Shown: positions 17,259-33,485 of the stretch, piece after piece
Layout: each line of letters opens with the position of its first letter
Numbering within the stretch: position 1 is the first letter of the stretch
Position numbers and translations under genes: made by a program
Notes under the pieces: model-generated
The model's input: the letters and a program-made list of their open reading frames with translations, nothing else
What the model was told of the DNA's origin: nothing
Databases searched by the model: none
Source: Sphingobium cyanobacteriorum
GTDB lineage: Bacteria; Pseudomonadota; Alphaproteobacteria; Sphingomonadales; Sphingomonadaceae
Reading direction: 5' to 3'
Length of the DNA stretch: 64,000 nt
Assembly: GCF_030580935.1 (NCBI RefSeq)
Contig: NZ_JAUQOM010000014.1
Span: 1-64,000 of the forward strand

Positions 17259-20200
17259 TCACAAGTCGAGGCCGAGGCTGCGTTCGGGCAGCGGCGGCAA
17301 TGGATCGCCGCGATCCGGCTTCAGATCGGACGGCGCTGGCGGGGCCTTCGCGGCCGGCATGGGCGCGGCGCCATCGGGCAGCGGCGGGAGGTCGGTCGGA
17401 ATCGGTGGAAGGTCCGAAAGGTCGATACCATCGATCGGGCCCGGGTCGAATTTCTCGAGGGTCTGAGCGCCCGGTCCCTTCTTCCCGTCGATGTCGAGGC
17501 GACCGAGCGTCTCGAGGGAGGAGGTCTTGTCACCGGGGTTCATGTCGAGCTGGCGGCCAAGCTTCTCCTTGTCGTCGACCACCATCGTGAGGGCATCGCG
17601 CACGCGGGTGACGAGGACGTTGAACAGACGCTGATTGGACAGGAAACGCTCGAATGACGACATCACACCGATCGCCTTGTCGGTGGTGATCCCCTGCGCC
17701 ATGTGCATGTTAAGGCTGTAGGCAAGGTCGAGCCGAGACAGCATCGGGTCACCGAGGCCGAGCGTCACGAGCGCCTTGTCTGCAGTCTCTACTTTCACGC
17801 CATCGGCATCGACGCCGACGACACGGGCGAGAGCGGCGTTGAGCATACCGCGTTCCTTGTCGTTGGCGGTCCAGCGGATGCGGTCGCCTTCGCGGAGTTG
17901 AAGGTCCTTCTTCTCGGAGAGCTGCAGCCGGTCGCGCTGCTCGGTCGGGGAAAGCTTCTGGGGATCGAACCGGATCCTGCGGCGACCGTCCGACAGTTCA
18001 ACCTTTCCGTTGGCATGGACTTTCAGGACGTCGTAGCGGCCCGCCTTGATGCCGACGTCCTGCGCACCGCCGCGGCCGACCTCCAGCGTCTGGCCCGGCC
18101 AGTAGGTCGACGCATAGCGCAGCTCCTCGCGGGTCGTATTGACGCGCTCGTATACGGTGAGGTGGATCGCCTCGCCCTTGACGCTGCCTTCGGCGATCAG
18201 TCCGTCCTGAATGCGCTGATTGATGATGGCGCGCGCATCGCGGCCCGACGCGAACACGGCGGTTGCCTCGCGCTCTTGCGGGTCAAGTCCGAGCCACATG
18301 TCGGCGGCAGCGGCCGCCGGGTCGGCTGCCTCGACGACACGCTCCCCCAGCACCTTCATCGCCGCGCCGGCCTTGCCGATATTGGCGAGCGCGGCGACCG
18401 TGCGCAGCTGGTCGGTGCGCTGACGGATATTCTGGTCCATGCGCGCCACGGTGCCACCGCCGACCTGGATCATGGCGAAGGCCTTGCCGGCATCGATCGA
18501 GGAGAGCTGCTGGCGATCGCCGACCAGCACCAGCTTGTCGACACCCAGGGCCGCCGTGATCTGGTGGAGCTTGAGCATGTCGTTGCTCGAGACCATCGAC
18601 GTCTCGTCGACCAGCAACATGGTGCCGGCGAGCTTCTCGCGCGCGGCGTCATATCGGGGCGTGTCACGCTCGGTGATGAAACGCTCATTGGCGAGGACGA
18701 AGGAGGCGATCGTCTGCGCCTTGATGCCCGCCCCTTCACCGAGGTCCGCCACCATTTTGTTCTGAAATGCGAGGCCGGTGATCGATCGGCCTTCGGCTTC
18801 GGCGACCCGGGCGACCGCCTGGAGCATGGTCGACTTGCCCGCGCCCGCAACGCCCTGGACCGACACGGTCCGATCTGTCGACGACAGGATCATTGTCGCC
18901 GCTGCAAGCTGACCCGGATTGAGGGGCAGAGCCACCGCTTCCTGCAAGCGCTGCGGCGCGTCTGCTGCCGCCACGATCGGCTCCGCTTTCCCTTTGCCTT
19001 CTTCGACAGCACCGAGGATCTTTTCTTCGGTCCGCAGAGCCTCCTGCGTGGTGCCCATGCGGCCCGTCCGATCCGCGGCGGTCGCAACGCCGGGGATGAG
19101 CTGACGGTTCTGCACCAGCCGATCGATCCGCTTCTCGATCATGTCGACGGTGACGCCTTTGAGGCCGAGATCGAGCGCGGTCTTGCTCAGCAGATTGACG
19201 GGCCAGGCGGCTTCGCGTTCGGAGAGCATGCGCACGGCAGACGCGACCGCAAGCTGCGCGCGTGCTTCTCCCGGCGACTTGACCGCCCGGGCGAGCGCGT
19301 TGTCCACCAGAGGATCCTGGGGACGAAGCAGCGCACCCAGGGTCTGGCGGGCGCCATCCACGGCATCGACGATGGCGCGGTAGCCGCGCTCCAGGGCGCT
19401 TTCCGGAGCCGCTAGCCCTGCGCGCGCCTCGGCCGCCGCCCGCAGGTCCTTGCCGTCGAAGCCGTGGGCCGCAGCCTGGTCGATCCAGCCCTGCTTGAGC
19501 GCCGCGCGATCCTCGACATCGAGTTTGGGATCGCGCGAGCGCTTGGTGATTTCGCGCAGGCCCTCGGGCGACTTGATGCCCAACCGCGTCGCGTGATCGA
19601 GGATCTCTTCGCGGCGCTGACTGAACTCGCCGATGACAGCCTTGGGGACACCCGATATCTCGAACGTGCCATGCTTGCCCTTGAGCTCAACCTGATAGCC
19701 GATCCGCTCGAGCCCGGCGCGCAGGAAGGCGTGGTAGATCGAGCCGATTATGCTGTTGTGGCTCCAGAGCTTGTCGGCATGGAGCGCCTGCCATTTGCCG
19801 TCGGGCATGCGCGTGAGATTGGCGATCACCGCATGGATATGCGCCTGGGGATCGAGCGCCCGGCTGGTGTCGTGCTGGAACAGCGCATAGACGAGATTGC
19901 CGGTCTGGACCGGCACCTTGCGGCCTTCGATGTCGCGCCGCCCCTCGGCGAGGTTCTTCTCGACCCACGCCATGGTCTGCTTGACGGCCGCCATATTGGC
20001 CTCAAGCACGCGCTTGTCGCCGGCGACATAGGCCATGATCGAGGCCGACTTCGGCATCGAGAAGGTGAGGTCGTAGCCCGCGCGCCGGTTCTCGACCTGG
20101 GCGACCGCTTCCCCGCTCGGAAGGATGCCATTGAGCACGCCCTCGAACGCGTCCTTGGACACCTCGCCGGACAGACCGAGGTCTTCCGACCCCTCCCCCG

Positions 20201-20303
20201 CCCACAGGCTGATCTCTGAGGATCCCTCGACCGTATAATAGTCGTCCTTCGCGAAATAGTTCGCGGCACCGGAAGCGGAGCGGACGCCGGCGACCGAGAG
20301 CAT
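17259..20303 (-). CDS. traI: MobF-family conjugative relaxase/helicase (TraI/TrwC type)
   Basis: The relaxase nicks oriT, stays covalently bound to the 5' end and pilots the strand, while its C-terminal helicase unwinds the plasmid. In 1014 residues, the relaxase domain (1-290) shows catalytic tyrosines Y22-Y23 (DDYYTVEG) and the metal-binding histidines H144, H155 and H157, spaced exactly as in TrwC. The helicase part has Walker A GVAGAGKST (about 485-493), Walker B LLVDETSM (about 567) and MHMAQGITTDKA late in the sequence. The tail is Pro/Asp-rich. Its ATG overlaps the traD stop (TGATG). It looks intact. Confidence 0.95.
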   Translation of the reverse strand: MLSVAGVRSASGAANYFAKDDYYTVEGSSEISLWAGEGSEDLGLSGEVSKDAFEGVLNGILPSGEAVAQVENRRAGYDLTFSMPKSASIMAYVAGDKRVLEANMAAVKQTMAWVEKNLAEGRRDIEGRKVPVQTGNLVYALFQHDTSRALDPQAHIHAVIANLTRMPDGKWQALHADKLWSHNSIIGSIYHAFLRAGLERIGYQVELKGKHGTFEISGVPKAVIGEFSQRREEILDHATRLGIKSPEGLREITKRSRDPKLDVEDRAALKQGWIDQAAAHGFDGKDLRAAAEARAGLAAPESALERGYRAIVDAVDGARQTLGALLRPQDPLVDNALARAVKSPGEARAQLAVASAVRMLSEREAAWPVNLLSKTALDLGLKGVTVDMIEKRIDRLVQNRQLIPGVATAADRTGRMGTTQEALRTEEKILGAVEEGKGKAEPIVAAADAPQRLQEAVALPLNPGQLAAATMILSSTDRTVSVQGVAGAGKSTMLQAVARVAEAEGRSITGLAFQNKMVADLGEGAGIKAQTIASFVLANERFITERDTPRYDAAREKLAGTMLLVDETSMVSSNDMLKLHQITAALGVDKLVLVGDRQQLSSIDAGKAFAMIQVGGGTVARMDQNIRQRTDQLRTVAALANIGKAGAAMKVLGERVVEAADPAAAAADMWLGLDPQEREATAVFASGRDARAIINQRIQDGLIAEGSVKGEAIHLTVYERVNTTREELRYASTYWPGQTLEVGRGGAQDVGIKAGRYDVLKVHANGKVELSDGRRRIRFDPQKLSPTEQRDRLQLSEKKDLQLREGDRIRWTANDKERGMLNAALARVVGVDADGVKVETADKALVTLGLGDPMLSRLDLAYSLNMHMAQGITTDKAIGVMSSFERFLSNQRLFNVLVTRVRDALTMVVDDKEKLGRQLDMNPGDKTSSLETLGRLDIDGKKGPGAQTLEKFDPGPIDGIDLSDLPPIPTDLPPLPDGAAPMPAAKAPPAPSDLKPDRGDPLPPLPERSLGLDL

Positions 20304-22609
20304 CAGATGCCCATATCCATGCCGTCATCGTCGCGGCCGCTGGCGAAAGCCTGGCGCAGCTCAACCAGCGTCAGATCCTCGACCTGCGGGCTGGTCTCGC
20401 CGTGCCGATGACCATCGCGGCGGTCATCCCTGTCGCGCGCGGAGACCGGCTGTTCTTCGCCGCCGGTGCGCGCCGCTGCCGCCTTGTCCGCCGCATGGGT
20501 GCCGGGCGTCGCCTGTTCGTCACGATCGTCGGCGCGCTGGGCCGCGCGCCGGGCGGCATCGTCCTCCTCCTCGACCTCGGCCGACAGGATGCGCGCGGCC
20601 AGATCGCGGGCGAGATTGGTGGTCTCGGCCACCTCTTCCACCACCTGCAACGAGCCGTCGCGCCCGCCTGCCTCCCCTGCCCCATCCTCGTCGAACGCTT
20701 CCTCTCCGCGCTTTGACCGCACCGGCCCGACATCGGGCCGTTGGACGAAGCCCTGGGCGACCTGGGGATAGTCTTTCCACTCGAGCAGGATCCGCGCCGC
20801 GGGAAAGCCGTCGGGGAACTTCACGAAGCCGTGCATCGAGGGCAGGTTGGTGATGTCGTCGGCGATGACGAGCGGCTCGACCTGTTTGCGCGGGGTCAGG
20901 GTCGAGGCGTCGCGGGTGTTGTTGTAGCCATAGCTATAGGCCTCATCCATCTGCCGAACCTCGCGGTTGCCGATGTAGCGGGCGCACTGCTCGGCCGTGT
21001 CGAGATCGGCGGTCGCGAGGATAAGCTTGGAGCGGGCAAGCGAGGCGAGATTGCGCGCTCCTTGCTCGCCATAGACTTCGACCAGTTTCTCGAAGCTATG
21101 GATGCCGAGGATCATAGCACCGCCGAACGCGCGGGCGGTCTGAAGACCATTCTCGATGGCGGGCAGGCGGTGGAGAGCGCCGAGCTCGTCGAACATGAAC
21201 CATGTGCGCAGGCTGCGCGTGCGCGGCAGCGTCATCAGCCGGTTGATGGCGAGGTCCATCCAGAGCGTCAGCAGCGCCCGGTTCATCGGCAGATCGACAT
21301 AGTTCGAGGTCACGAACAGGATCGAGCCGGGCTTCTTGTCGCGGGTGATCCAGTCGCGGATCGAGAAGGGCTCACCTTCGTCCGGCAGGAAGCGCAGGAC
21401 CTGCGCGTTGGTGTTGAAGACGGCGCGGATCGATTCCGCCATGCGGGCCGCTTCTGGGGCGGTCAGCGGATCGGCGATGGTGTTGGCGAGGAAGCGGTGA
21501 ACGCGCTTCAGGTCGGCCGTCATCAGGTTCTCGGACAGCGCGAGGTTGCTGGTCTGTCCCCGCTCCATGAGGCGGATGCACATCTCGATGAAGAGCGTGC
21601 GCGCGGCGAGCGCCCAGAAGGGTTCGGAGGAGCCGCCGTCAGACGGGATCAGCGCCGCCGCGGCGGCGGTGAACTCGCTGTGCGTGCGGCAGTCGTTGAA
21701 GATCGACCAGGCCGGGCAGCGCGCGTCCATCGGATTGAGGATCGTGTCGCGCGTGGGATCGTAGAAGGCTTCGACATAGGCCCCTGTCAGGTCGAAGATC
21801 ACCGCCGTGTCCTGACGCTCCCGCATCTGGGTGACGAGGCTCCTCAGCTCCGTCGTCTTGCCCGAGCCGGTGGTGCCGATGAGCATGGCATGCGACTGCT
21901 CGGTGCGGTGCGGAAAGGGGATGCCGGCGAGCGTGTAGGGATGATGGATGCCGGCTTCCTTGCGCGCGCGGAACGGGAGCGCCAGAACCTGCCGCGGGGA
22001 CAGGCTGGGGAAGAGGTCGGCGGCTTCCTCTTCGAACTTGATCCGGTTGTGCTCATTGATCTCTGCAAGGAGGACGGTGCGGTCGACCAGCATGGCCCCG
22101 CGTTCATGGCGTTCCTGAAGGATCGAACGCCCCCGCCGGTGCGAGATGTCGACGAACCAGATGGCCGCCGGAATGGTGATGAAGATCGAGACGAGGAAGG
22201 CGCCGATGAGGCCGCGCATCGCGACGGCCCAGGCGGTGATGACCTCGGGCACATAGGGCACCGCTTTCATCACGGTGCGCAGGATCTCGCCATTGGGAAG
22301 CGTGACGTTGACGCGCTTGCTCGGATTGAGATCGACCCAGTTCCAGAGCGTCGCGTAGATCTTCATGCAAACGAGCTGGAAGCCATGCTCATCGAGCTTG
22401 ATCGACATGATGATGAACCAGGCTGCGAGGAAGGCGAAGAACCACAGGATGAAGGGGAGTTTCGTGCCCGAGAACCACATCAGCATTTCGTGGGTAAGAA
22501 GCTGGCTGCCGCGGGTGAAATTACCGGCATTGCGCTGGACGCGGCCGCGCGCGGAATGATGGGTGAGCGGGACGGGACGCCCGTCCGTGCGGATGTCCTC
22601 ACGCGCCAT
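20303..22609 (-). CDS. traD: Type IV coupling protein TraD
   Basis: TraD is the hexameric inner-membrane ATPase that recruits the relaxosome and feeds DNA to the secretion channel. The 768-residue protein has membrane helices at about 49-70 and 125-152, Walker A GTTGSGKT at 245-252, Walker B FMFDELGAL near 473, and an acidic, charged C-terminal tail from about 640 that in F binds the relaxase accessory protein. It overlaps the upstream RHH gene by 11 bp and traI by 1 bp, so the three are translationally coupled. Confidence 0.95.
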   Translation of the reverse strand: MAREDIRTDGRPVPLTHHSARGRVQRNAGNFTRGSQLLTHEMLMWFSGTKLPFILWFFAFLAAWFIIMSIKLDEHGFQLVCMKIYATLWNWVDLNPSKRVNVTLPNGEILRTVMKAVPYVPEVITAWAVAMRGLIGAFLVSIFITIPAAIWFVDISHRRGRSILQERHERGAMLVDRTVLLAEINEHNRIKFEEEAADLFPSLSPRQVLALPFRARKEAGIHHPYTLAGIPFPHRTEQSHAMLIGTTGSGKTTELRSLVTQMRERQDTAVIFDLTGAYVEAFYDPTRDTILNPMDARCPAWSIFNDCRTHSEFTAAAAALIPSDGGSSEPFWALAARTLFIEMCIRLMERGQTSNLALSENLMTADLKRVHRFLANTIADPLTAPEAARMAESIRAVFNTNAQVLRFLPDEGEPFSIRDWITRDKKPGSILFVTSNYVDLPMNRALLTLWMDLAINRLMTLPRTRSLRTWFMFDELGALHRLPAIENGLQTARAFGGAMILGIHSFEKLVEVYGEQGARNLASLARSKLILATADLDTAEQCARYIGNREVRQMDEAYSYGYNNTRDASTLTPRKQVEPLVIADDITNLPSMHGFVKFPDGFPAARILLEWKDYPQVAQGFVQRPDVGPVRSKRGEEAFDEDGAGEAGGRDGSLQVVEEVAETTNLARDLAARILSAEVEEEDDAARRAAQRADDRDEQATPGTHAADKAAAARTGGEEQPVSARDRDDRRDGHRHGETSPQVEDLTLVELRQAFASGRDDDGMDMGI

Positions 22610-22889: not shown

Positions 22890-22893
22890 ACCG

Positions 22894-22913
22894 AGCCTCC
22901 TAGCAGGGAGGCT
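22894..22913 (-). promoter_or_regulatory. Hairpin burying the RHH gene ribosome-binding site
   Basis: Perfect 7-bp arms (agcctcc / ggaggct) with a 6-nt loop enclose the AGGAGG at 22896-22901 that serves the TTG start at 22889. Folding would block translation of the operon's first gene. Confidence 0.5.
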
Positions 22914-23370
22914 GGTGGGGTCTCAGAAACCGGTCCGGGTTATAGCGCAATCGCTGTGGTGGAGCAAGGAAATCGGCTTCCCCGCAGCAAGCGTGTGCGC
23001 CTGTAACACGCGAAAATGGCGGATTTCCGTGGGTTTCGGGAACGGCGAAACCATGTCCCACAGTGTCCCACCGAGCGGAAACGCCATAACCGGTTGGAAT
23101 TGTTCCAGAACCTATGCACCGAAGGTGCGTTCGGTGTGCTTCTCTGCACCAGGGCTGAGTCCAGACCCTCGGAGCGTCCAGGACGCGTTCGGAATGGTTG
23201 GGATAGCGCCTCCGGCGGGGCTCCGTGCCGGCCTGCGGTCGGAAGGAAATGCCGGCTGGCGATTGACGGACCACGCGATCGCGGGTGCGTTTCAGCGCTT
23301 TCGGCAGGCTCGATGAGCGCCTATAGTCGGACCGTTCATAGCCCGATCAGCGTGAACCAAGAGGCCCATC
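22914..23370. other. Non-coding region, probable oriT
   Basis: No gene is visible. Three inverted repeats are present: GCGTGT/ACACGC (22991-22996, 23006-23011), GGTTTCG/CGAAACC (23032-23038, 23046-23052) and CACCGAA/TTCGGTG (23117-23123, 23130-23136). A direct repeat TGTCCCAC occurs at 23054 and 23064. The region lies between the relaxase operon and a divergent accessory gene, exactly where MobF origins of transfer are found. I cannot assign the nick site. Confidence 0.6.
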
Positions 23371-23706: not shown

Positions 23707-23931
23707 TCAGAATTCGTCAAGCCGCCCGCCCGGCACGCTATGGACGATCCGGTCGATGATCGTCATCGGCAGCGCGCCGTAATCCCCCTCGTCGATGGTG
23801 ATGTAGCCGGCCTCCTCGTCCGCCACGACATGCTGGTCGAAGTAGCTGTGAAGCGCGCGACGTTCGGCGTTCGCGATGGCGGCGAAGAAGGCGGCGTTGT
23901 CGGCGGCGGCGCTGGTCGAGATCATCTGCAT
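23707..23931 (-). CDS. Small acidic hypothetical protein of the leading region
   Basis: The 74-residue product starts MQMISTSAAADNAAFFAAIA and continues with an acidic segment (DQHVVADEEAGYITIDEGDYG). I do not recognise it. AGGAG lies 6 nt before the ATG but is part of a 9-bp hairpin. The leader also carries stem-loop element W. It ends just before a good terminator and is monocistronic. Its place next to oriT suggests early expression in recipients. Confidence 0.6.
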   Translation of the reverse strand: MQMISTSAAADNAAFFAAIANAERRALHSYFDQHVVADEEAGYITIDEGDYGALPMTIIDRIVHSVPGGRLDEF

Positions 23932-23936
23932 GATAG

Positions 23937-23964
23937 GCTCCTGTCTGTCTTGAATGACAGGAGC
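23937..23964 (-). promoter_or_regulatory. Hairpin enclosing the ribosome-binding site of the 23931 gene
   Basis: Arms gctcctgtc and gacaggagc (9 bp, perfect) around a 10-nt loop include the AGGAG used by the ATG at 23931. Translation would need the stem to open. Confidence 0.5.
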
Positions 23965-24022
23965 GGCGCGTCGGGCGGCCGAGGCCGGGTCAAGGATCGC
24001 GAAGCGACCGCGAAGCGGCGGT

Positions 24023-24120
24023 GGGGGTCACGATTTTCTTCGGCGGCCAGGACGCCGAAGGAGAAGCGCCGCGCCTGATCCGCCGGAGAAAATGGTGGGG
24101 CCCCGCCGTCCTTGAGGCGG
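24023..24120 (-). repeat. Leader stem-loop element W
   Basis: It runs from GGGGG (24023) through CGATTTTC (ATTTTC 24033-24038) to GAAAAT (24088-24093), then GGTGGGGCCCCGCCGTCCTTGAGGCGG-like sequence. A perfect 8-bp hairpin CTTCGGCG/CGCCGAAG (24038-24060) is nested inside. It starts 92 nt upstream of the ATG at 23931. The rest of 23965-24263 holds no gene that I can see. Confidence 0.55.
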
Positions 24121-24263
24121 TCTCGGGCGTCCGACAGAATGGGAAGTCTGTGAGAGATGTTTCCTCTCGTCGGGAGACCCCGGCAAGGCGTAGCGGCGTG
24201 CGGACCGACGGGTCCGCGCGGCACGCGAGCGAGCCGGGACTTGATGCCAGCGGCAAAAGAAAA

Positions 24264-24288
24264 GGGACCGAGCGCGAGGCCCGGTCCC
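24264..24288 (-). terminator. Terminator of the zinc-ribbon gene
   Basis: On the minus strand the GGGACCG/CGGTCCC stem with an 11-nt loop is followed by TTTTCTTTT, 9 bp past the stop at 24297. Confidence 0.65.
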
Positions 24289-24296
24289 GGATGGCG

Positions 24297-24788
24297 TCAG
24301 GGATGACGACCGCAGTGGCAGTAGTTCTCGTCGATGCCGCTGATCGAGCAGAGGCCTGGTCCGAAACCGGCGGCCATGATCTCGGGATCGTCGATATAGC
24401 CAAGCTCGGTGGCGATCGCGATTGCCTGTGACCGGAGCGCCGGATCGAGCTTGTCGATGGTCGGCTCCAGCGCCTCCGTGAACCACCGCTCATACATCTC
24501 GTAGCTGCCGCCGGCGGTCTGGTGCATCATCGCTTTCGAGACGCGGTCCGCCTCCTCCCGAAACTGCGCCAGACTATCCGATTGGGCGGCTGCGGATAGC
24601 GGATCGTCCTGCGGAGTGTGCGCCTGTTGTGGGCGGTGTTCGGCTGCGACCTGGTATGTCCTGCCGCAGTTCGAACAGCGGGCGCATTCATCGACTTCGT
24701 CATAATGCTCAGGATCGTAGAGCGTCGCGCAGTACGGGCAGATCGGAGCGTTGAACAGCGCCCGGAGATCGTCGGAAAGGTTGTCCAT
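24297..24788 (-). CDS. Zinc-ribbon protein of unknown function
   Basis: The 163-residue protein has CPYCATLYDPEHYDEVDE followed by CARCSNCGRTYQV: paired CxxC knuckles near residues 17-20 and 36-42, a treble-clef or zinc-ribbon site. A helical middle follows, and the C-terminus has a second Cys/His group (ENYCHCGRH). The ATG at 24788 is chosen because GGAGG is 5 nt upstream; earlier ATGs at 24800 and 24848 are possible. Its leader carries element X. It has its own terminator, so it is a single-gene unit in the leading region. Confidence 0.65.
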   Translation of the reverse strand: MDNLSDDLRALFNAPICPYCATLYDPEHYDEVDECARCSNCGRTYQVAAEHRPQQAHTPQDDPLSAAAQSDSLAQFREEADRVSKAMMHQTAGGSYEMYERWFTEALEPTIDKLDPALRSQAIAIATELGYIDDPEIMAAGFGPGLCSISGIDENYCHCGRHP

Positions 24789-24903
24789 AAGAGCCTCCAT
24801 CAGGATGATGCCGTGCTCCCCATCTCTCATCGATGAGGATGGGCTCATCGGGACGCGGTGTTGAGGCGGTCAGGGACGGCATGGCCGCCGCGAAGCGGGC
24901 AGC

Positions 24904-24977
24904 GGGGGAGCCGATTTTGTTGCCGGGTAGCGGAGCGGATCGGCGGCAAAATTGGGGGGACCGCTGATCCTTGACGG
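24904..24977 (-). repeat. Leader stem-loop element X
   Basis: GGGGG-AGCCGATTTT opens the element and CAAAATTGGGGGGACCGCT closes it; ATTTTG (24914-24919) pairs with CAAAAT (24947-24952). It shares both flanks with element Y at 27614 while the middle differs. It begins 116 nt upstream of the ATG at 24788. No gene is seen in 24978-25304. Confidence 0.65.
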
Positions 24978-25304
24978 CCGAGAGACACCCAGCGTCAAAC
25001 TGTGGCGATGAAGCTCCGTCTGATGCCGAGATGTGAGAGTGGTTTGGCTTTGCCCCCGAGCGTCGTGCGGGCGTCCGGATGGACCGCATCGCACGTCTAG
25101 GAGCGGCTCGCACAGAGGCAACTTGGTGTCGTTCCATCTCTGTGATAGGCGAGCGCTTGCGCCACCAAGGCCGTGGCGCCGGGACTGGTAATCCCGTCGA
25201 GAAAGGCAGCTCGGTGTGGTTTCACGCCGGGGTGCCTGCGCATATGTCCAGGTGCCTCGGTGCTAAAAGCGTAGGCGCATGTCTCGACGTGTTACCAGCC
25301 CCGG

Positions 25305-25351
25305 CTCCCGCGCCCAGAGCGCGGGAGTTTCGGCAAGGGTTTGGCCCTTGC
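25305..25351 (+). promoter_or_regulatory. Two adjacent perfect hairpins upstream of the 25370 gene
   Basis: CTCCCGCGC/GCGCGGGAG (25305-25327) and GCAAGGG/CCCTTGC (25333-25351) follow each other and end 18 nt before the ATG at 25370. They could terminate read-through or act in the leader. Confidence 0.4.
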
Positions 25352-25369
25352 GCATCCGGGGAGCGTGGG

Positions 25370-25621
25370 ATGAGCAAGTCAGGGCAGAAGGTGGAGTCTC
25401 GTCCGCCGGAGATGGCATCGCGAGCGGCTGAAGCGTCGGACGCGATCGACCATCTGAGAAACGATCCGGAGATCCGGCGCGCGCTGGCTCTGGTCCTGAT
25501 GCGGCAGGCGATGAAGGCGCTCGAAGAGGCCGAAGAAGACAGGGCCTGTTGTCATCTGCAGGCCGCGATCGACAGCCTTCTCGAGCGTTATGTCGATGGC
25601 GTTCCGTCGGCGACGAACTGA
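25370..25621 (+). CDS. Small helical hypothetical protein
   Basis: The 83-residue product starts MSKSGQKVESRPPEMASRAA. Its second half is an amphipathic helix pair with a Cys-Cys (EEAEEDRACCHLQAAIDSLL). No family recognised. It is one of few plus-strand genes in the leading region and converges on the next gene with 4 bp between stops. GGGGAG precedes the ATG by 5-9 nt. Confidence 0.5.
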   Translation: MSKSGQKVESRPPEMASRAAEASDAIDHLRNDPEIRRALALVLMRQAMKALEEAEEDRACCHLQAAIDSLLERYVDGVPSATN

Positions 25622-25625
25622 CCGT

Positions 25626-26192
25626 TCAGGCCCACGCAAACCGAGCGTCATCATGCGCCGGCGCGCTCGCGACGAGACGCTCGAGCCGGGGCAGATAATG
25701 ATCGACGCCGCGCAGTGCCGCCCGGCTCGGCGTGGCCGGATCGGACAGCCGGGCGCGGAGGAGCTCGACGGGAATGTCGCCGACGCTTTCCGCCTCGATT
25801 GCGAGGGCTTCGAGCAGCGCATAGGCATTGCCATAGGCGAGATCGAGTTCGAGGCCCTGATCCGATGTGAGGGCGACGCACAGCGTGATCTCGGCGCTGG
25901 CGGGGCAGTGATGGATGGCGATGCGCCGTCCTCTGAACTGGGCTTCCTCGATGACCGCGATCACGGCGGCGTCATGGTCGAAGATGCTGGTGATGGCGGC
26001 GAGCGCGAGCGGACAGACGCGCGCCTCGAAGCTGTCGCCGAGATACTCGTCGGGTTCAAGCAGCGCGACGCCGATGCGGTCTCCCTCGGAGCGGAGGAAC
26101 CGCCGGAGCGCCGCGAGTTTCCGCGCCGTGATGATAGCGCTGGGCGAGAGAGCATCGTCGGCCGGTTCGGTGATGCGAAACAGGATGGACAC
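25626..26192 (-). CDS. Hypothetical protein, 188 residues
   Basis: Not recognised. The start is GTG 26192 with GAGGAG 9 nt upstream. The frame is open further back to 26345, but that part is Arg/Pro-rich leader sequence. The protein has an alpha/beta pattern with GVALLEPDEYLGDSFEARV and a C-terminal RLSDPATPSRAALRGVDHYL. The adjoining leader holds a polypurine tract, and a strong terminator separates it from the DUF2493 gene. Confidence 0.55.
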   Translation of the reverse strand: MSILFRITEPADDALSPSAIITARKLAALRRFLRSEGDRIGVALLEPDEYLGDSFEARVCPLALAAITSIFDHDAAVIAVIEEAQFRGRRIAIHHCPASAEITLCVALTSDQGLELDLAYGNAYALLEALAIEAESVGDIPVELLRARLSDPATPSRAALRGVDHYLPRLERLVASAPAHDDARFAWA

Positions 26193-26220
26193 GGGCTTGG
26201 TCTCCTCGACTGAAGGCGCT

Positions 26221-26243
26221 TTGCCCCTCCCCTCTCCTCTTTC
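26221..26243 (-). promoter_or_regulatory. Polypurine leader tract of the 26192 gene
   Basis: On the coding strand this reads GAAAGAGGAGAGGGGAGGGG and continues CAA, 29-51 nt before the GTG start. It has three or more G-runs. Confidence 0.45.
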
Positions 26244-26352
26244 TGGCGGCCGCCCACGGTCAGCTTGTCGGGCCCGTCTTGGCGGGACGCTGCAGTCGCG
26301 GCGCACGGGGGTTCGATGCCCGCGTGCGCCGCTTCCTCGCAGCAAGAAAGAA

Positions 26353-26382
26353 GAGAGGCTCCGGCGGATGCCGGAGCCTCTC
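26353..26382 (-). terminator. Terminator of the DUF2493 gene
   Basis: Perfect 13-bp stem GAGAGGCTCCGGC/GCCGGAGCCTCTC with a 4-nt loop; on the minus strand CTTCTTTCTT follows. It starts 9 bp past the stop at 26392. Confidence 0.75.
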
Positions 26383-26391
26383 GAGGGTGCG

Positions 26392-27471
26392 TCAGCGACG
26401 ACGCTGGCGACCGCCGTTCACCATGTCGCGGTAGTAGTCATCCTGCGTCCAGGGATCGAACTCGTCGCGGGACTTCGGGAGATCGGTCTTGGGCTGGGCG
26501 AGCCGCGCCTTCACGGTCTCATCGAGCTTCACGACATGGAGAGGCACGCCTGCCTGCCGCAGCTTCTGGGCGAGGTTCATCTGGATGCCCGAGCCTTCGC
26601 AGACGACGGCTTCCACCGGCCTCAGGGCCAGCAGCCGGTCGTTGCGGACGAAGGCGGCCTTGGCGCCCAACCGGCGGTCGAGCTTGAACAGAATGACCTT
26701 CACGCCGCGCGCTGCCGCCCATGCCTGCGCAATCGCATCGCAGCCCTTGGTCTGGGCGGTCGTTGCGAGGATCATTTCCGGGATGCGCGCCTTGATCGAG
26801 TCGAGCCCGCGCCAGAGACCCTCATGGTCTTCCCAGACCTGCCCGCCGGAGAATGCGACAACCGGACCTTCGGGCGCGAACTGCTCGCGGCGCTCTCGAA
26901 TTCGGGAAGCGAGATAGTCGCGGGCATCGATCATCGACGCGGTGACGCCTCGGGACACCCGGCTGCCGCGGGTCGGCGAATAGGGCCGTCCGGTCTCGAC
27001 GCGATAGACTTCGGAGGCGTGGTCGCGCATGCACTCCATCGCATCGCGGCACCCTTGCAGCGTCTGGCAGAGAAGCTGGGCGTCTTCGAGCTGCGCGGCG
27101 TAGATCTCGCTCGGGTCAAAGTTGCGGGCGAGTTCGCCAAGCTCCTTCGCGGCATCGTCTTCTCGGTCGTTGATGCGCTTCGCGACGACGTGGAAGCTGT
27201 TCACGAAGCCCCAGGCGAGATCGGCTGCATAGGGTTCGAGGCGCGTGTCGCGGAACACATCGAACAGCGTCGCCATCACCATCTCAACGGCCACACGGGC
27301 CTGCTCCGGGTCGGGCATGTCGAGCTGCTCGGCCTCGTCGACCGGCGAGAGCTTCGCGCGTTCGTCATGCTCGATGAAAGCGTGTTCGTAAGTGGCGGCG
27401 CGGTCGTGGCTGTCCGTCTCGCTGGCGATGAAGCTGGCGAGATCTGCGAAGTTCGAGAAAGACTTGGTCAT
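26392..27471 (-). CDS. DUF2493 (SLOG-superfamily) protein
   Basis: The C-terminal domain (about residues 205-320) reads PVVAFSGGQVWEDHEGLW, then ILATTAQTKGCDAIAQAWAA, then RNDRLLALRPVEAVVCEGSG, the DUF2493 pattern: a Rossmann-like SLOG domain thought to bind nucleotides. The N-terminal 190 residues are helical and specific to plasmid versions. The 359-residue start at 27471 has GGAGG 5 nt upstream. It is flanked by element Y upstream and a strong terminator downstream. Such proteins are common beside ssb on sphingomonad plasmids; the biochemical role is not known. Confidence 0.8.
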   Translation of the reverse strand: MTKSFSNFADLASFIASETDSHDRAATYEHAFIEHDERAKLSPVDEAEQLDMPDPEQARVAVEMVMATLFDVFRDTRLEPYAADLAWGFVNSFHVVAKRINDREDDAAKELGELARNFDPSEIYAAQLEDAQLLCQTLQGCRDAMECMRDHASEVYRVETGRPYSPTRGSRVSRGVTASMIDARDYLASRIRERREQFAPEGPVVAFSGGQVWEDHEGLWRGLDSIKARIPEMILATTAQTKGCDAIAQAWAAARGVKVILFKLDRRLGAKAAFVRNDRLLALRPVEAVVCEGSGIQMNLAQKLRQAGVPLHVVKLDETVKARLAQPKTDLPKSRDEFDPWTQDDYYRDMVNGGRQRRR

Positions 27472-27613
27472 GTGAGCCTCCATGGGTTCTGGATGTCTCA
27501 TCCTCGGGATGAGGCCTGGCTCAGGGCATGCGGTGGTCAGGGAGGTCGGGCACGTTAACCGGGAAGCCGGCCGCTCGCGGCCGGACCCGGGTTAACGCCG
27601 CCGCGCGGGGAGC

Positions 27614-27688
27614 GGGGGAGCCGATTTTTTCGGGGGGCCGCGCCAGCGGGCGCACGCAAAAATTGGGGGGACCGCTCATGCTCGACGG
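27614..27688 (-). repeat. Leader stem-loop element Y
   Basis: GGGGG-AGCCGATTTTTT opens and CAAAAATTGGGGGGACCGCT closes the element; ATTTTT (27624-27629) pairs with AAAAAT (27658-27663). The flanks are nearly identical to element X. It begins 143 nt before the ATG at 27471. The leader also shares with X's leader the tctcatc..gatgag hairpin and the ggtcaggga segment nearer the start codon. Confidence 0.65.
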
Positions 27689-28244
27689 ACCGCCAACCCC
27701 GCATGCCACACTAGGCAGACACAAGAGAGGAATAGGAATGAAAATCCTTCCCCGCTCGTCAACCGCAAGTGGGATCGTGACCCGGCAGGGCGGAGACGAA
27801 GCTCCGCTTCGGCTCCGTGAGCTTAGCCGGGGCTCGCGCGGCACGCGCGGGCGGCGGCTTAGCGAATAGAGCCCCGGTCCCGTCCTTCGCCCGAGCGAAG
27901 GGCGGGATGCGCCAACCCTTCTTGGCCAGCCCTATCGCAGGACCGATGACCTGGACCTCGCCGGCCCCACACAGCCCGGTTTTCAGACGAAGTCTGATCG
28001 ATCGGTGAGATCCCGCAGCACGAGCAACTTACGCCGCAGCCAGCACGCAGCACCGCGCGGCACGCAGACGTGACGCGAGGCGACATTCGCTTTGAACCCG
28101 GTCCGGTCAGAGGCGGGTGAGCACGGCAAATGCCCGCGCCGCCATCGAGGGCGCCGCGCCGCGAGTTTCAGGGGATGCTGGGCGGGTGGCAAGCTCGCCC
28201 TAGGCACGGGGCGAGGCCGGCGTGTGCCGACCTCGCCGCCGGCA
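27689..28244. other. Intergenic region without a convincing gene
   Basis: A 43-codon reading frame at 27738-27869 (+) starts MKILPRSSTASGIV after agaggaatagga, but its Arg-rich remainder looks non-coding. GC-rich inverted segments and an Ala/Arg-coding pattern in several frames make it hard to support any gene here. It might hold promoters for flanking genes. Confidence 0.4.
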
Positions 28245-28847
28245 TCAGGTCGGCCTGATCCAGTCGGCGGCGAGCTGCCATCCAAGGATATCGCTGCCGC
28301 TGTCACCGACGGCATCGCCGGAGATGTCGCGCCAGGGCGAACGCGGCCGGTAGGTCGGCATATACCGTACCGTCATCAGCTCGAATGTGGAGCAGGTATA
28401 GCCGCTCAACCGGATCGCAAGCACCGGCTGGTTCTCGGGCGGCAAAGCACCGAAGATCGAGATGAAGCCCGAGGGGATCGGGTGCAGTGTCGCATCGATC
28501 ATCGCGCGCGCGAGCCGGGTCTCCAGTTCGCTGGCCTCGCTGCCCCAGGGATGGGCATCGATGTCGAACAGATCGGCGGCGCCGGCCGCGGGCACATAGG
28601 AGAATTCGCCGGACCAGCAGCGGCTGTCCGGATTGAGCGCGGCGATATCGTCGCCGAGGCGCGGATCGCCGGTCTCGCAGCGTAGCCAGTCGGCAAGGGC
28701 CGGCGTGAGCCGGCCTGAAAGCTTGCGGGCGCGCAGCGGGGTCGCATCGAGATCGGGAAATTCGACCAGCCACCAGGCGAGGCGGTGGTGCATGATGATG
28801 CCGAAGCAATGGTCGGCGGACCGGGCGGGCGTGGATTGTGCGTGCAT
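28245..28847 (-). CDS. Hypothetical protein, 200 residues, in the ssb operon
   Basis: Not recognised. It begins MHAQSTPARSADHCFGIIMH, contains WLVEFPDLDATPLRARKL and ends DILGWQLAADWIRPT. It is soluble. It starts 29 bp after the previous gene and the order ssb-109aa-200aa on one strand suggests one transcript, placing it with early-expressed plasmid functions. Confidence 0.55.
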   Translation of the reverse strand: MHAQSTPARSADHCFGIIMHHRLAWWLVEFPDLDATPLRARKLSGRLTPALADWLRCETGDPRLGDDIAALNPDSRCWSGEFSYVPAAGAADLFDIDAHPWGSEASELETRLARAMIDATLHPIPSGFISIFGALPPENQPVLAIRLSGYTCSTFELMTVRYMPTYRPRSPWRDISGDAVGDSGSDILGWQLAADWIRPT

Positions 28848-28876
28848 GAGCGTTGTCCTGTTGGAAGGCCGACGGG

Positions 28877-29206
28877 TCAATGGACCGACCCGTCGTGCGC
28901 GAAGATGGAATGGGGGACGATCAGTTGGTGCTCGCTGGCGACCAGCGACCAGGCCGCGGCAAGATCGTCATAATATTCGCAGTCGACGATCGCGTCGGCG
29001 CTGGCTTCGCCGAACTGCGCCTGCTCGAAGTCGCGGGCGTGGGCGGCGTCGGTCGCCTCGGTGATCGCCTGGCCAAGGCGGGCGGCGATCTCGTGGCGGC
29101 CCATGCTGTCGGCCGCGCGGCGGATGCGCTCGACCATGCAGGGGTTGGTGGTCTCGATGCCGTGGGCGATGCCGGCGATGTCGTCGAAGCTGGTGAGGGT
29201 GAACAT
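28877..29206 (-). CDS. Hypothetical protein, 109 residues, in the ssb operon
   Basis: The protein starts MFTLTSFDDIAGIAHGIETT and has a helical core (AARLGQAITEATDAAHARDF) with an aromatic-acidic middle (VDCEYYDDLAAAW). No named family. GGAGAG lies about 7 nt before the ATG. It lies 56 bp after ssb on the same strand. Confidence 0.55.
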   Translation of the reverse strand: MFTLTSFDDIAGIAHGIETTNPCMVERIRRAADSMGRHEIAARLGQAITEATDAAHARDFEQAQFGEASADAIVDCEYYDDLAAAWSLVASEHQLIVPHSIFAHDGSVH

Positions 29207-29262
29207 TTGTGCTCTCCATCGAAAGGTGGAGGGCGGCCGCGCGCGACCGCCCGGAAGGACGG

Positions 29263-29592
29263 TCAGAGGAATTCGATTTCCTCGGCGACGATGTCGGTGT
29301 TGTAGTAGGTGCGACCGTCGCGCTCGTTGCGGCTGTAGCGGATCTCGCCGACCACCAGGAGCTTGTCGCCCTTCTTCTTGTGGTTGGCGACCGACTTGCC
29401 GAGGCCGTTGAAGGCCTTGACCGTGTGGAACTCGTCGTAGGTCTCGGTGTAGCCGTTGTCGTCCTTCTGGACCTGGCCGTCCTTGATGACCGGCTTGGAG
29501 GTGACGAGGCTGAAGCTGACGCCGCCCTTGCTGTCCGTGCCGAAGCGGCTGATGTCCGAGGTGATGCGGCCCGAGAGAAAAACCTTGTTCAT
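29263..29592 (-). CDS. ssb: Single-stranded DNA-binding protein (plasmid type)
   Basis: SSB coats single-stranded DNA during replication and conjugative entry. The 109-residue protein starts MNKVFLSGRITSDISRFGT and shows OB-fold features: SFSLVTSKPV, DEFHTVKAFNGLGKSVANH, KKGDKLLVVGEIRYSRNERDGRTYY. It lacks the long Gly/Pro-rich linker and acidic tip of chromosomal SSB, so interactions through the tip are not expected. It heads a minus-strand operon with element Z in its leader. Plasmid ssb genes are classic leading-region genes. Confidence 0.85.
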   Translation of the reverse strand: MNKVFLSGRITSDISRFGTDSKGGVSFSLVTSKPVIKDGQVQKDDNGYTETYDEFHTVKAFNGLGKSVANHKKKGDKLLVVGEIRYSRNERDGRTYYNTDIVAEEIEFL

Positions 29593-29694
29593 GGCCTGAT
29601 GCCTTTCGCGTCTCACGCCAGCGGGCCGATCCCGCTGGGATGAACTTGTCCGAAGGCCCGTGATCGAGGGGACACCGCACCCGAGCGCCAGCGA

Positions 29695-29776
29695 GGGGAA
29701 ACCCCCATTTTTCGAGTGGTGCGGGCAGAGGCCGCCAGGCCTCAACACGGTCGGAAAATGGCGGGTTGCGGAGGCC
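29695..29776 (-). repeat. Leader stem-loop element Z (divergent copy)
   Basis: CCATTTT (29705-29711) pairs with AAAATGG (29755-29761), and a small hairpin GAGGC/GCCTC (29728-29743) is nested inside. It lies 113 nt before the ssb ATG. Sequence flanks differ from W, X and Y, but the geometry and position agree. Confidence 0.4.
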
Positions 29777-30235
29777 CCGCACGGGCGTAGCGTTCATCCA
29801 CTCAAGCGGATGGCCCACCGGCGATATCGCGAAGGCCCTCGCCATGGACGGTCTTCACTCGGGGTCAGCCAAAGCGAGACACCTGCCCTGCACGGCGGCG
29901 GCGCGTCGGATTGTCGGCCTCGCCCGAGCGGTCTGGGGACGGCCTCGTGTGCGGGATCGACAGGGCGCGGCGTCCGGGACGGCGAGATGCCATCAGGTCA
30001 TGCCGGCCAGCGGTCGGCGAGTGCCATGCACGAGGAAGGGCATGGCGCTGGATCGTCCGGCAAGAGGACAGCGCACCGCGGCACGGCGACGGGTGCTCCG
30101 GCTCGAGCGATATCAGCGGTCGGCAGGCAGAGACCTCGGCGACGCTTCCTGCGGTCGGGCCGGCCCGCCTGTCGCCAAGATGGTGGCTCGATGCGGCCTA
30201 TCGGCGAGGAAAGCCGGGAAGGACGGCGAGGCTAT
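29777..30235. other. Intergenic region without a convincing gene
   Basis: Long plus-strand frames run through here, but their products are Arg/Gly/Pro-rich and continue antisense into the DoxX gene. I see no ribosome-binding site with a plausible start and no conserved motif. It may hold the ssb promoter at its left end. Confidence 0.4.
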
Positions 30236-31491: not shown

Positions 31492-33312
31492 TCAGGCCAG
31501 ACGCGCTTCGAGCGCGCCGAGTTCGGCGGTCAGCGCCGCGGGCAGGCGGTCGCCGAAGCGTGCATAGTCGCGGCGGATGCGCTCGGCCTCGGCGCGCCAT
31601 TCGTCGTGATCGACGGCGAGGAGGGCTGCCACGGCTGCGTCGGAGAGATCGAGTCCCGCCAGATCGAGGTCGTCCATCCTGGGAAGGCGGCCGATGGCCT
31701 TGTCCTCGGCCTCGACGCGCCCGTCCAGGCGATCGGCGATCCATTTGAGGACGCGGGCATTGTCGCCGAAGCCGGGCCAGAGGAAACGGCCGTCGACATC
31801 CTTGCGGAACCAGTTGACGTAGAAGATGCGCGGCAGCTTGGCCGCGTCCGACGCCTCCGCGCCCAGCTTTAGCCAGTGGGCGAAATAGTCGCCCATATTA
31901 TAGCCGCAGAAGGGCAGCATCGCGAAGGGATCGCGGCGCACGTCGCCGATCTTGGTCTCGGCCGCGGCCGTGCCCTCGGACGCGACGTTGGAGGCCAGGA
32001 ACACGCCGTGCTGCCAGTCGAAGGCCTCGGTGACGAGCGGAGCGGTCGTCGCTCGGCGGCCGCCGAAGAGAATGGCCGAGATCGGAACGCCCCTGGGGTC
32101 CTCCCATTCGGGCGCGATTGCCGGGCATTGCCCCGCGGGGCAGGCGAAGCGCGCATTGGGATGGGCAGCCGGCGTGCCGAGATCGGGAGACCAGGCCTGG
32201 CCGCGCCAGTCGGTCAGCCCGGCGGGCGGCTCCTTGGTGAGGCCCTCCCACCAGACATCGCCATCGGCGGTGAGCGCTGTGTTGGTGAAGATGGTGTTCG
32301 CGTCGAGGCTGGCGAGCGCATTGGCGTTGGTGGTCGCGCTCGTGCCCGGCGCGACGCCGAAGAATCCGGCCTCGGGATTGATCGCGTAGAGCCGGCCGTC
32401 GTCACCGAAGCGCATCCAGGCGATGTCGTCGCCGATGGTCTCGGCCTTCCAGCCCGGAATGGTCGGCTGCAGCATGGCGAGGTTGGTCTTGCCGCAGGCC
32501 GAAGGGAAGGCGGCGGCGACATAATGCACGCGGCCCTCGGGTGAGGTCAGCTTGAGGATGAGCATATGCTCGGCAAGCCAGCCATCGTCGCGGGCCATGA
32601 CCGAGGCGATGCGCAGGGCGTAGCATTTCTTGCCGAGCAGGGCGTTCCCGCCATAGCCCGATCCATAGGACCAGATTTCGCGCGTCTCGGGGAAGTGGAC
32701 GATATATTTGGTCTCGTTGCAGGGCCAGGCGGCGTCGGCCTCGCCGGGCGCGAGCGGCGCGCCGACCGAATGGACCGCGGGCACGAATTCGCCGTCCTCG
32801 CCCAAGGCGTCGAGCGCGGGCGTGCCCATCCGCGTCATCACGCGCATGGAGAGGACGACATAGGGGCTGTCGGTGATCTCCACTCCGAGCGCGCTGATCG
32901 GCGAGCCGATCGGGCCCATGGAGAAGGGCACGACATACATGGTGCGCCCGCGCATGCAGCCGTCGAACAGGTCCTTGAGCGTGCCGCGCATCTCGTCCGG
33001 CGCGCGCCAGTTGTTGGTCGGTCCGGCGTCGGCCTCGTTTTCGGCGCAGATGAAGGTGCGGCTTTCGACGCGCGCGACATCGCGCGGGTCCGAGGCGGCC
33101 CAGAAGGAGTTGGGGCGCTTCGCGGGATCGAGGCGGCGCAGGGTTCCGGCCGCGACCAGCTGCTCGGTCAGGGCATGCCATTCGGCCTCGGAGCCATCGC
33201 ACCAGTGGATATGGTCGGGTTTGGTGAGGGCGGCGATCTCGTCGACCCAGGCAGCGAGGCGGCGATGGCGAGTCGGAGCCGCCAGCGTTTCAGCGATAAG
33301 GGCGTCCGACAT
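31492..33312 (-). CDS. pckG: Phosphoenolpyruvate carboxykinase (GTP)
   Basis: PckG converts oxaloacetate and GTP into phosphoenolpyruvate, GDP and CO2 at the entry to gluconeogenesis. The 606-residue length is normal. Key motifs are present: the kinase-1a loop [13 protein letters not shown] with the reactive cysteine, [32 protein letters not shown] with [14 protein letters not shown], and [19 protein letters not shown] near the C-terminus. ATG 33312 follows GGAGAG. It is an unusual central-metabolism gene on a mobile element and would support growth on acids. It is divergent from the XRE/SulP pair. Confidence 0.95.
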
Positions 33313-33485
33313 CGAAACTCTCCGAATAACTGGGGCGTCGCGGCAAGCGCGCGCGGTTTGCGAGGGGGTTGATGCCCGGTTCGTTAGCAGTTTGAGGACG
33401 CCAGATGCAAGTTTAGGATCGCTATTCAGATAGTCAGCCTCGCTTCTGAGCAATCCTTGACGTCATTCCTGATGTATTTTACATC

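Follow-up and report, generated by a model that had tools for sequence, protein, structure and literature searches.

Cloverleaf elements near conjugative transfer genes of Alphaproteobacteria as probable promoters on the transferred single strand

Work on a stretch of DNA from Sphingobium cyanobacteriorum (contig NZ_JAUQOM010000014.1, positions 1 to 64,000; hereafter the window, 64,000 nucleotides (nt) in length) has identified four folded elements, W, X, Y and Z, each of which precedes a minus-strand gene beyond a set of conjugative transfer genes. W, X and Y are members of one family, and Z is a separate conserved element with a comparable fold. Judging from predicted folds and sequence comparison, each element probably becomes a promoter through folding of the transferred single strand (T-strand). 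A first-pass annotation of the window had placed four related stem-loops upstream of these genes and had recorded their ATTTT/AAAAT pairs, the nearly identical flanks of X and Y and a shared "ggtcaggga" sequence. Each of these observations is borne out, the last sequence being the plus-strand 5′ arm of the closing stem P1 described below; the relatedness of the elements extends to W, X and Y and does not include Z.

The family was described from 84 unique copies, namely the unique elements among 81 matches with both flanking motifs, together with copies added by hand. In T-strand sense, the fold is closed by the nearly palindromic P1 (GTCA[A/G]GGA...TCCTTGA) and contains the hairpins P4 and P3, followed by P2, in which G runs make up an interior loop and which also has the ATTTT/AAAAT tract and a variable tip. 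The stem-loop to which promoter activity had originally been ascribed is the tip of this larger fold, and the candidate promoter hexamers are located in P1 and in the flank distal to the gene.

Covariance modelling, as proposed in the first-pass annotation, was carried out and supports the fold. In an alignment of 57 of the 84 unique copies with 37 base pairs, 93.4% of the cells pair versus 81.8% in shuffles, and covariation reaches 0.278 versus 0.098 in shuffles and at most 0.080 in slid versions. Both sides change in 16 of the 37 pairs. With DNA parameters, the minimum free energy of the T-strand lies below that of the mRNA strand in all 84 copies, with mean z-scores against dinucleotide shuffles of -4.0 for the T-strand and -2.1 for the mRNA strand. 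In 82 of 84 copies the two strands differ by more than the mean difference obtained with shuffles.

Another means by which the strand can be told is the kind of mismatch that the pairs tolerate. Read on the T-strand, the 37 pairs contain 154 G.T cells versus 15 A.C cells. The flank filter (TCAAGGA together with TCC/T-T/C-TGA forms) itself favours G.T at one P1 pair; once this pair and the pair beside AAAAT are omitted as touched by selection, 81 G.T cells stand against 15 A.C cells, where base composition alone predicts 1.33 to 1 (binomial p ~1e-8, with related sequences treated as independent). A sequence that acted as mRNA would be expected to be biased the other way. The strand that carries the fold is the one opposite the mRNA, and we read it as the T-strand from the side on which transfer genes lie and from an RSF1010-like core of the origin of transfer (oriT) on two plasmids. 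A search of Rfam returned no match above gathering score in the window and none in 13 element loci; at a relaxed E-value there were seven matches, all below their gathering scores.

A σ70-like promoter appears to be part of the T-strand fold. In the T-strand 3′ flank, the TTGA[C/G] of P1 serves as a candidate -35 and is followed by [T/C]AnnnT, a candidate -10. Eighty copies had enough flank for analysis and were reduced to a nonredundant set of 36. A hexamer with A at its second and T at its sixth base (A2/T6) occurs on the T-strand of 36/36 copies (34% in shuffled sequence), at spacings of 14-20 nt in a scan limited to 12-20 nt, and on the mRNA strand of 8/36. Hexamers matching TATAAT at four or more of six positions are found on the T-strand in 23/36 copies (shuffled 6.7%) and on the mRNA strand in none of the 36. 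The sequence GGGA follows the -10 in 11 of the 36 copies. Feklistov is said to have described, in 2006, a single-stranded DNA aptamer motif of sigma in which the -10 is likewise followed by GGGA; the resemblance lies in GGGA on unpaired non-template DNA, although the aptamer is an in vitro motif and the present element is a natural one. The AAAAT of P2 was also considered as a -10 and was dropped, as it sits in a variable tip without a -35 at fixed spacing; it may instead be an UP-like tract.

The spacer between the two hexamers pairs with the gene-side flank. On the T-strand, pairing with a copy's own flank averages -15.75 kcal/mol versus -9.64 kcal/mol with swapped flanks, and the own flank is better in 34 of 36 copies. 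In predicted folds of these 36 copies, pairing to the gene-side arm involves a fraction 0.97 of the TTGA bases and 0.73 of the spacer bases, and falls to 0.26 at the -10 and 0.22 over the four bases that follow; pairing of the spacer is above that of the -10 in 31 copies, equal to it in three and below it in two. Ungapped agreement between the arms drops from 0.47 at base 1 of the -10 to 0.11-0.28 over the five bases that follow it, the values at bases 2 and 6 being influenced by the A2/T6 choice. In an open complex, the bubble starts past the first base of the -10, and the modelled duplex would end at this same point.

Copies held out of the first set behave in much the same manner. Sixty model hits, less 14 identical to training sequences and one near an end, gave 45 held-out copies, and these were reduced to 23 from other genomes whose flanks are less than 75% identical to those of the first set and to one another. 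The -10 and P0 (which, with P1, would close the fold) lie outside the model, while TTGA and the cloverleaf contributed to the finding of these copies. The A2/T6 hexamer is present on the T-strand of 22/23 (shuffled 33%) and on the mRNA strand of 2/23; at least four matches to TATAAT occur in 13/23 (shuffled 7.3%) and 0/23, respectively. Spacer pairing is again better with the copy's own flank (-18.7 versus -10.7 kcal/mol; 22 of 23). Among held-out copies, P1 varies with compensation (GGC/GCC in L138, L184 and L142, TGA/TCA in L186, GAA/TTC in L134), whereas the TTGA next to it stays constant; L188 and L143 are among the few exceptions.

The elements also keep a set distance from the gene that follows. 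A start codon with a Shine-Dalgarno-like sequence lies on the gene side of 77 of the 84 copies, at 46-77 nt in 74 of them; in the held-out copies a gene start lies at 34-79 nt in 40 of 45, at 334 nt in one, and is missing in four. On the opposite side, a start codon was seen in 42 of the 78 copies with enough sequence, at scattered distances, and in 29 of the 45 held-out copies at 2-275 nt. Plasmid stretches with annotation, in which 18 copies were counted by eye against incomplete gene tables, have annotated gene starts 51-77 nt away in 14 cases, the other four being at 11 nt, at 284 nt, overlapping and at 1.7 kb. The motif GTC[A/T]T stands 15-42 nt ahead of the start codon, on the upstream side of the Shine-Dalgarno-like sequence, in 35 of 74 copies, and perhaps lies near the transcription start. 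A GTC[A/T]TC start-site motif before the ATG was not relied on, as only 16 of the 74 copies have it. Loci L141 and L204 each carry two copies, 550 and 511 nt apart, respectively, and the copies of L204 each precede one of two consecutive short annotated genes.

The orientation of the elements toward transfer genes was followed in 130 copies from 68 genomes of the window's family, among the matches listed, with relaxases searched in 75 genomes. A TrwC relaxase lies within 15 kb of 81 of the 130 copies (about 1% expected), on the T-strand 5′ side in all 81. A PF03432 relaxase lies within 15 kb of nine of the remaining 49, again on the T-strand 5′ side in 9/9; among the PF03432 rows omitted from this count, none is within 30 kb of the leftover copies. 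For a further 20 copies, the neighbour is either a TrwC relaxase at up to 30 kb or, at up to 25 kb, a coupling protein or MobA/MobL relaxase, on that same side in 20/20. In total, 110 of the 130 copies have transfer genes nearby, always on the T-strand 5′ side, and the elements do not have the distribution that would have told against the original proposal, namely that of a repeat dispersed away from leading regions. Copies that lie within 10 kb of each other share a strand in 20 of 20 pairs. With MobA/MobL relaxases within 15 kb, eight of nine copies agree with the expected side; one of these eight, G481, belongs to the 130 as well. An RSF1010-like core, ATTGCGCCCT, that follows an inverted repeat was found on pAoF64/95 and on a Sinorhizobium plasmid, between traC and traA and on the same strand as the elements. 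If the nick falls at the RSF1010 position, the T-strand of these two plasmids runs from the core to the elements. The same search gave no match to the core in L210, L008 and L204.

The W/X/Y family is widespread in Alphaproteobacteria. Covariance model R1, built from 57 training sequences, has matches in 103 of 298 genomes of the window's family, in 13 of 289 drawn from its class and in 17 of 398 from its phylum, all 17 of which are in the same class. The window's own genome has eight R1 matches, on contigs C4, C6, C13 and C23; those on C4 are accompanied in their region by a second TrwC relaxase and by open reading frames (ORFs) similar by eye to the coupling protein, the gene behind Y and ssb. 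A pattern scan of one genome per species found at least 118 stretches. Among the matches listed, 129 core matches comprise 81 with both flanking motifs, ten with one and 38 with neither; these 38, several of which are in unrelated phyla, evidently arose by chance. Blastn against PLSDB, partial matches included, returned W-like DNA in 197 records, X-like in 280 and Y-like in 11. Element copies are related to each other, so that these counts are not independent events, and the R1 E-values are rough.

The window, which makes up nearly all of contig C6 (64.6 kb) in a genome of 4.49 Mb, has the elements and genes listed in Table 1. Beyond the relaxase and coupling protein lie the minus-strand genes behind W, X, Y and Z, and in MobF systems the oriT usually sits between the coupling-protein side and the leading genes. 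If the oriT lies there in the window as well, the W-Z stretch is the leading region, its genes are read toward the oriT, and the window's plus strand is the T-strand.

Table 1. Features of the window (positions 1 to 64,000)
Feature	Position	Strand	Evidence or remarks
MobF/TrwC relaxase	17259..20303	-	profile match
Coupling protein TraD/TrwB	20303..22609	-	profile match
Presumed oriT stretch	22890..23370	not assigned	presumed from its place beside coupling protein and relaxase
Gene behind W, 74 residues, acidic	23707..23931	-	ATG at 23931; no Pfam/NCBIfam match
Element W, cloverleaf P1, P4, P3, P2	23986..24119	+ (T-strand)	R1 79.7 bits (W is a training sequence)
W promoter candidate	24112..24144	+	TTGAGG 24112-24117 in P1, 17-nt spacer, CAGAAT 24135-24140, GGGA 24141-24144
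Gene behind X, 163 residues, two CxxC motifs, zinc-ribbon-like by eye	24297..24788	-	ATG at 24788; no Pfam/NCBIfam match
Element X	24866..24978	+	R1 101.9 bits (identical copy L098 in training)
X promoter candidate	24971..25001	+	TTGACG 24971-24976, 19-nt partly paired spacer, CAAACT 24996-25001
Gene behind Y, 359 residues, PF10686 (YspA-like)	26392..27471	-	ATG at 27471; pLA4 homologue annotated DUF2493
Element Y, long P4	27542..27689	+	R1 64.7 bits, E 1.9e-10, outside training set
Y promoter candidate, deviating	27682..27712	+	TCGACG 27682-27687, 19-nt spacer, CACACT 27707-27712
Gene behind Z, single-strand binding protein	29263..29592	-	ATG at 29592; Pfam SSB 58.8 bits
Element Z, comparable T-strand hairpin	29638..29798	+	not matched by R1
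Z hexamers, weak	TTGCGG 29766-29771; TAGCGT 29788-29793	+	TAGCGT paired at 4/6 bases

The R1 scores in Table 1 come from a 172-kb search in plus-strand sense, and those of W and X are partly by construction because W and a copy identical to X are among the training sequences; in the same search, the opposite strand of any copy scored at most 17.6 bits. With its flanks, W folds at -67.4 kcal/mol on the plus strand versus -52.3 on the minus strand, and the corresponding values are -42.2 versus -32.7 for X and -67.2 versus -56.0 for Y. In the predicted fold of W, the spacer is paired except for one base and CAGAAT is paired at its first base only; CAAACT of X likewise has its first base paired and the rest open, and CACACT of Y is paired at three of six bases.

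Element Z is only an architectural relative of the family. R1 finds no match to Z in the window up to an E-value of 5, and the pLA4 homologue of Z scores 14 bits (E 2.1). Z-like DNA was found in 18 PLSDB records (blastn, partial matches included). Its T-strand fold is more stable than that of the mRNA strand in 9/9 aligned sequences, by 2.8 kcal/mol in the window's copy, and the consensus folds contain 28 G.T and 4 A.C cells on the T-strand versus 14 and 8 on the mRNA strand.

Two other features of the window were noted. ARAGORN calls a tRNA-Thr at 25149-25241 (+), which is probably a false positive; it makes no such call in the related stretches L005, L007, L207, L208 and L209. A long ORF at 31492-33453 (-) directly follows the transfer and leading region and by eye resembles a GTP-dependent phosphoenolpyruvate carboxykinase; this point may mark a junction to chromosomal DNA or an integrated element.

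On the proposed mechanism, the region would fold as the T-strand enters the recipient, with P0 and P1 closing a cloverleaf made up of P4, P3 and the long hairpin P2. The 3′ arm would act as the non-template strand, carrying the -35 (TTGA) in P1, the largely paired spacer and the -10 ([T/C]AnnnT), and the 5′ flank as the template strand. The host's σ70-type RNA polymerase could then transcribe into the gene, whose ATG is about 50-80 nt away, ahead of second-strand synthesis. The RNA made in this way might double as a primer for the complementary strand, a role reported for Frpo. We infer initiation by the polymerase, its start site, the sigma factor used and the silence of a gene-directed promoter in double-stranded DNA from the computed features described above. 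A tentative extension, which we hold to be rather doubtful, is that the promoter switches direction: into the gene while single-stranded and, once double-stranded, away from it with the same hexamers, leaving the gene off. Antisense RNA might then arise over the preceding gene after second-strand synthesis, and conversion to double-stranded DNA would itself be the off switch.

Several results weigh against this mechanism. At least two copies, L117 and L122, have TCGAGGA opposite TCCTTGA, which gives an A.C mismatch on the T-strand, and the T-strand is the more stable in 20 of 23 held-out copies, not in all. The narrow range of hexamer spacings was partly imposed by the limits of the scan. Spacer pairing on the mRNA strand is also better than with swapped flanks (-12.9 versus -9.0 kcal/mol), so that pairing as such does not select the strand. 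Element Y deviates at the -35, with TCGACG in place of TTGA. The Frpo of F, taken as a positive control, says little either way: it shows only a small difference between strands (-134.4 kcal/mol on the T-strand versus -128.4 on the coding strand), and the hexamer scan returned nothing from it. One copy outside the 130-copy set (G930:C10:47385-47491) has a MobA/MobL relaxase 14.5 kb off on the unexpected side, and for 20 of the 130 copies no transfer gene was found nearby in searches reaching to 15-30 kb. For these last copies, the stretches around six were taken and selected proteins of three were scanned, and the scanned loci have the same kind of gene set as other element loci. At the chromosomal loci L198 and L199, the element lies beside tandem integrase genes with no relaxase found nearby; PF10686 genes occur at L199 and L203, and L199 also has ArdC-type anti-restriction and ParB-type genes. 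L198 and L199 look like leading regions of integrated elements.

Other roles for the fold are conceivable. The element could be an initiation site of the ssi (single-strand initiation) or sso (single-strand origin) type, whose main task is to start complementary-strand synthesis from a primer laid by polymerase or primase at the fold, with gene expression secondary. A T-strand-specific fold would fit priming as well as expression, and Frpo is reported to do both, with sso sites described as functionally comparable (PMC7690428); however, several copies that each stand some 50-80 nt ahead of a gene with a ribosome-binding-like sequence suggest control of genes over a single replication start and make this role unlikely. 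The TTGA, spacer and -10 also form a normal σ70 promoter in T-strand sense, which could simply face away from the gene in double-stranded DNA and yield divergent or antisense RNA while the fold serves some other purpose. Such a promoter would leave unexplained both the pairing of spacer with gene-side flank, with its end at the -10, and why the gene on the other side lies at a fixed distance. Start codons on the side it faces are scattered, and in 14 of the 18 annotated copies the nearest upstream annotated gene is on the strand of the downstream gene, where divergent RNA would be antisense; we consider this reading decidedly improbable.

A structured leader of the downstream mRNA, acting like a riboswitch or through translational control, would account for the position upstream of genes, and the mRNA strand can fold to some degree, as its mean z-score indicates. 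Such a leader is nevertheless very improbable: pairs that are G.T on the T-strand become A.C mismatches on the mRNA strand, the latter is the less stable strand in every one of the 84 copies, no Rfam family was matched, and no -10 with at least four of six matches lies 12-20 nt behind a sense TTGAC or CTGAC in any of the 36 copies or the 23 held-out ones. The strand-specific hairpin and the integrase genes near L198 and L199 might also bring to mind a folded recombination site of the attC type, or a mobile repeat, and yet the strict orientation, the gene spacing and the promoter hexamers do not fit a mobile site, which leaves hardly any likelihood for it.

Single-strand promoters have been described for enterobacterial plasmids such as F and ColIb-P9. 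Frpo1 and Frpo2 of the F plasmid are reported to fold on the single strand, to rebuild -10 and -35 sequences and to be needed for early expression in the recipient (PMC9849209); Frpo is further reported to prime the complementary strand (PMC7690428). The present elements resemble Frpo1 and Frpo2 in their leading-region location, T-strand fold, rebuilt -10 and -35 and association with genes that include ssb (PMC9849209). Unlike the Frpo of F, they would have a cloverleaf closed by a TTGA stem with the -10 left open, and they occur in Alphaproteobacteria with MOBF, MOBQ and PF03432-type relaxases nearby. R1 has no match in positions 46-68 kb of F up to an E-value of 5. The ssi promoters of ColIb-P9 are similar in that their activity is reported to depend on single-strand secondary structure (PMC9849209, PMC7314908), according to the title of a cited work. 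The sso of rolling-circle elements such as ICEBs1 (PMC4595007) is reported to use a folded single strand for initiation as well, whereas the present family has many copies, each tied to a gene. The Frpo/ssi-like reading put forward in the first-pass annotation gains support from the predicted T-strand fold and its apparent built-in -35 and -10. By the features tested, the family appears to work on the Frpo/ssi principle, and we do not file it as a homologous member of Frpo because R1 shows no similarity to the Frpo of F.

In one survey, five known Frpo/ssi sequences served as BLAST queries against leading regions, and candidates in selected islands were sought by -35, -10 and UP consensus (PMC11541004); the words "Alphaproteobacteria" and "Agrobacterium" do not appear in the main text of that paper. 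A literature search, with preprints and most subscription journals outside its scope, found no earlier description of an alphaproteobacterial single-strand promoter. If the mechanism proposed here is true, the elements represent a second, apparently unrelated design of single-strand promoter with a clear consensus, present on sphingomonad, rhizobial and agrobacterial plasmids, and this would point to early expression from the entering strand as a general feature of conjugation. The model provides a searchable marker of T-strand direction and of early genes, many of them of unknown function and some beside anti-restriction genes. As natural promoters with a -10 that is apparently already open, the elements would also offer a test case for how sigma reads single-stranded DNA.

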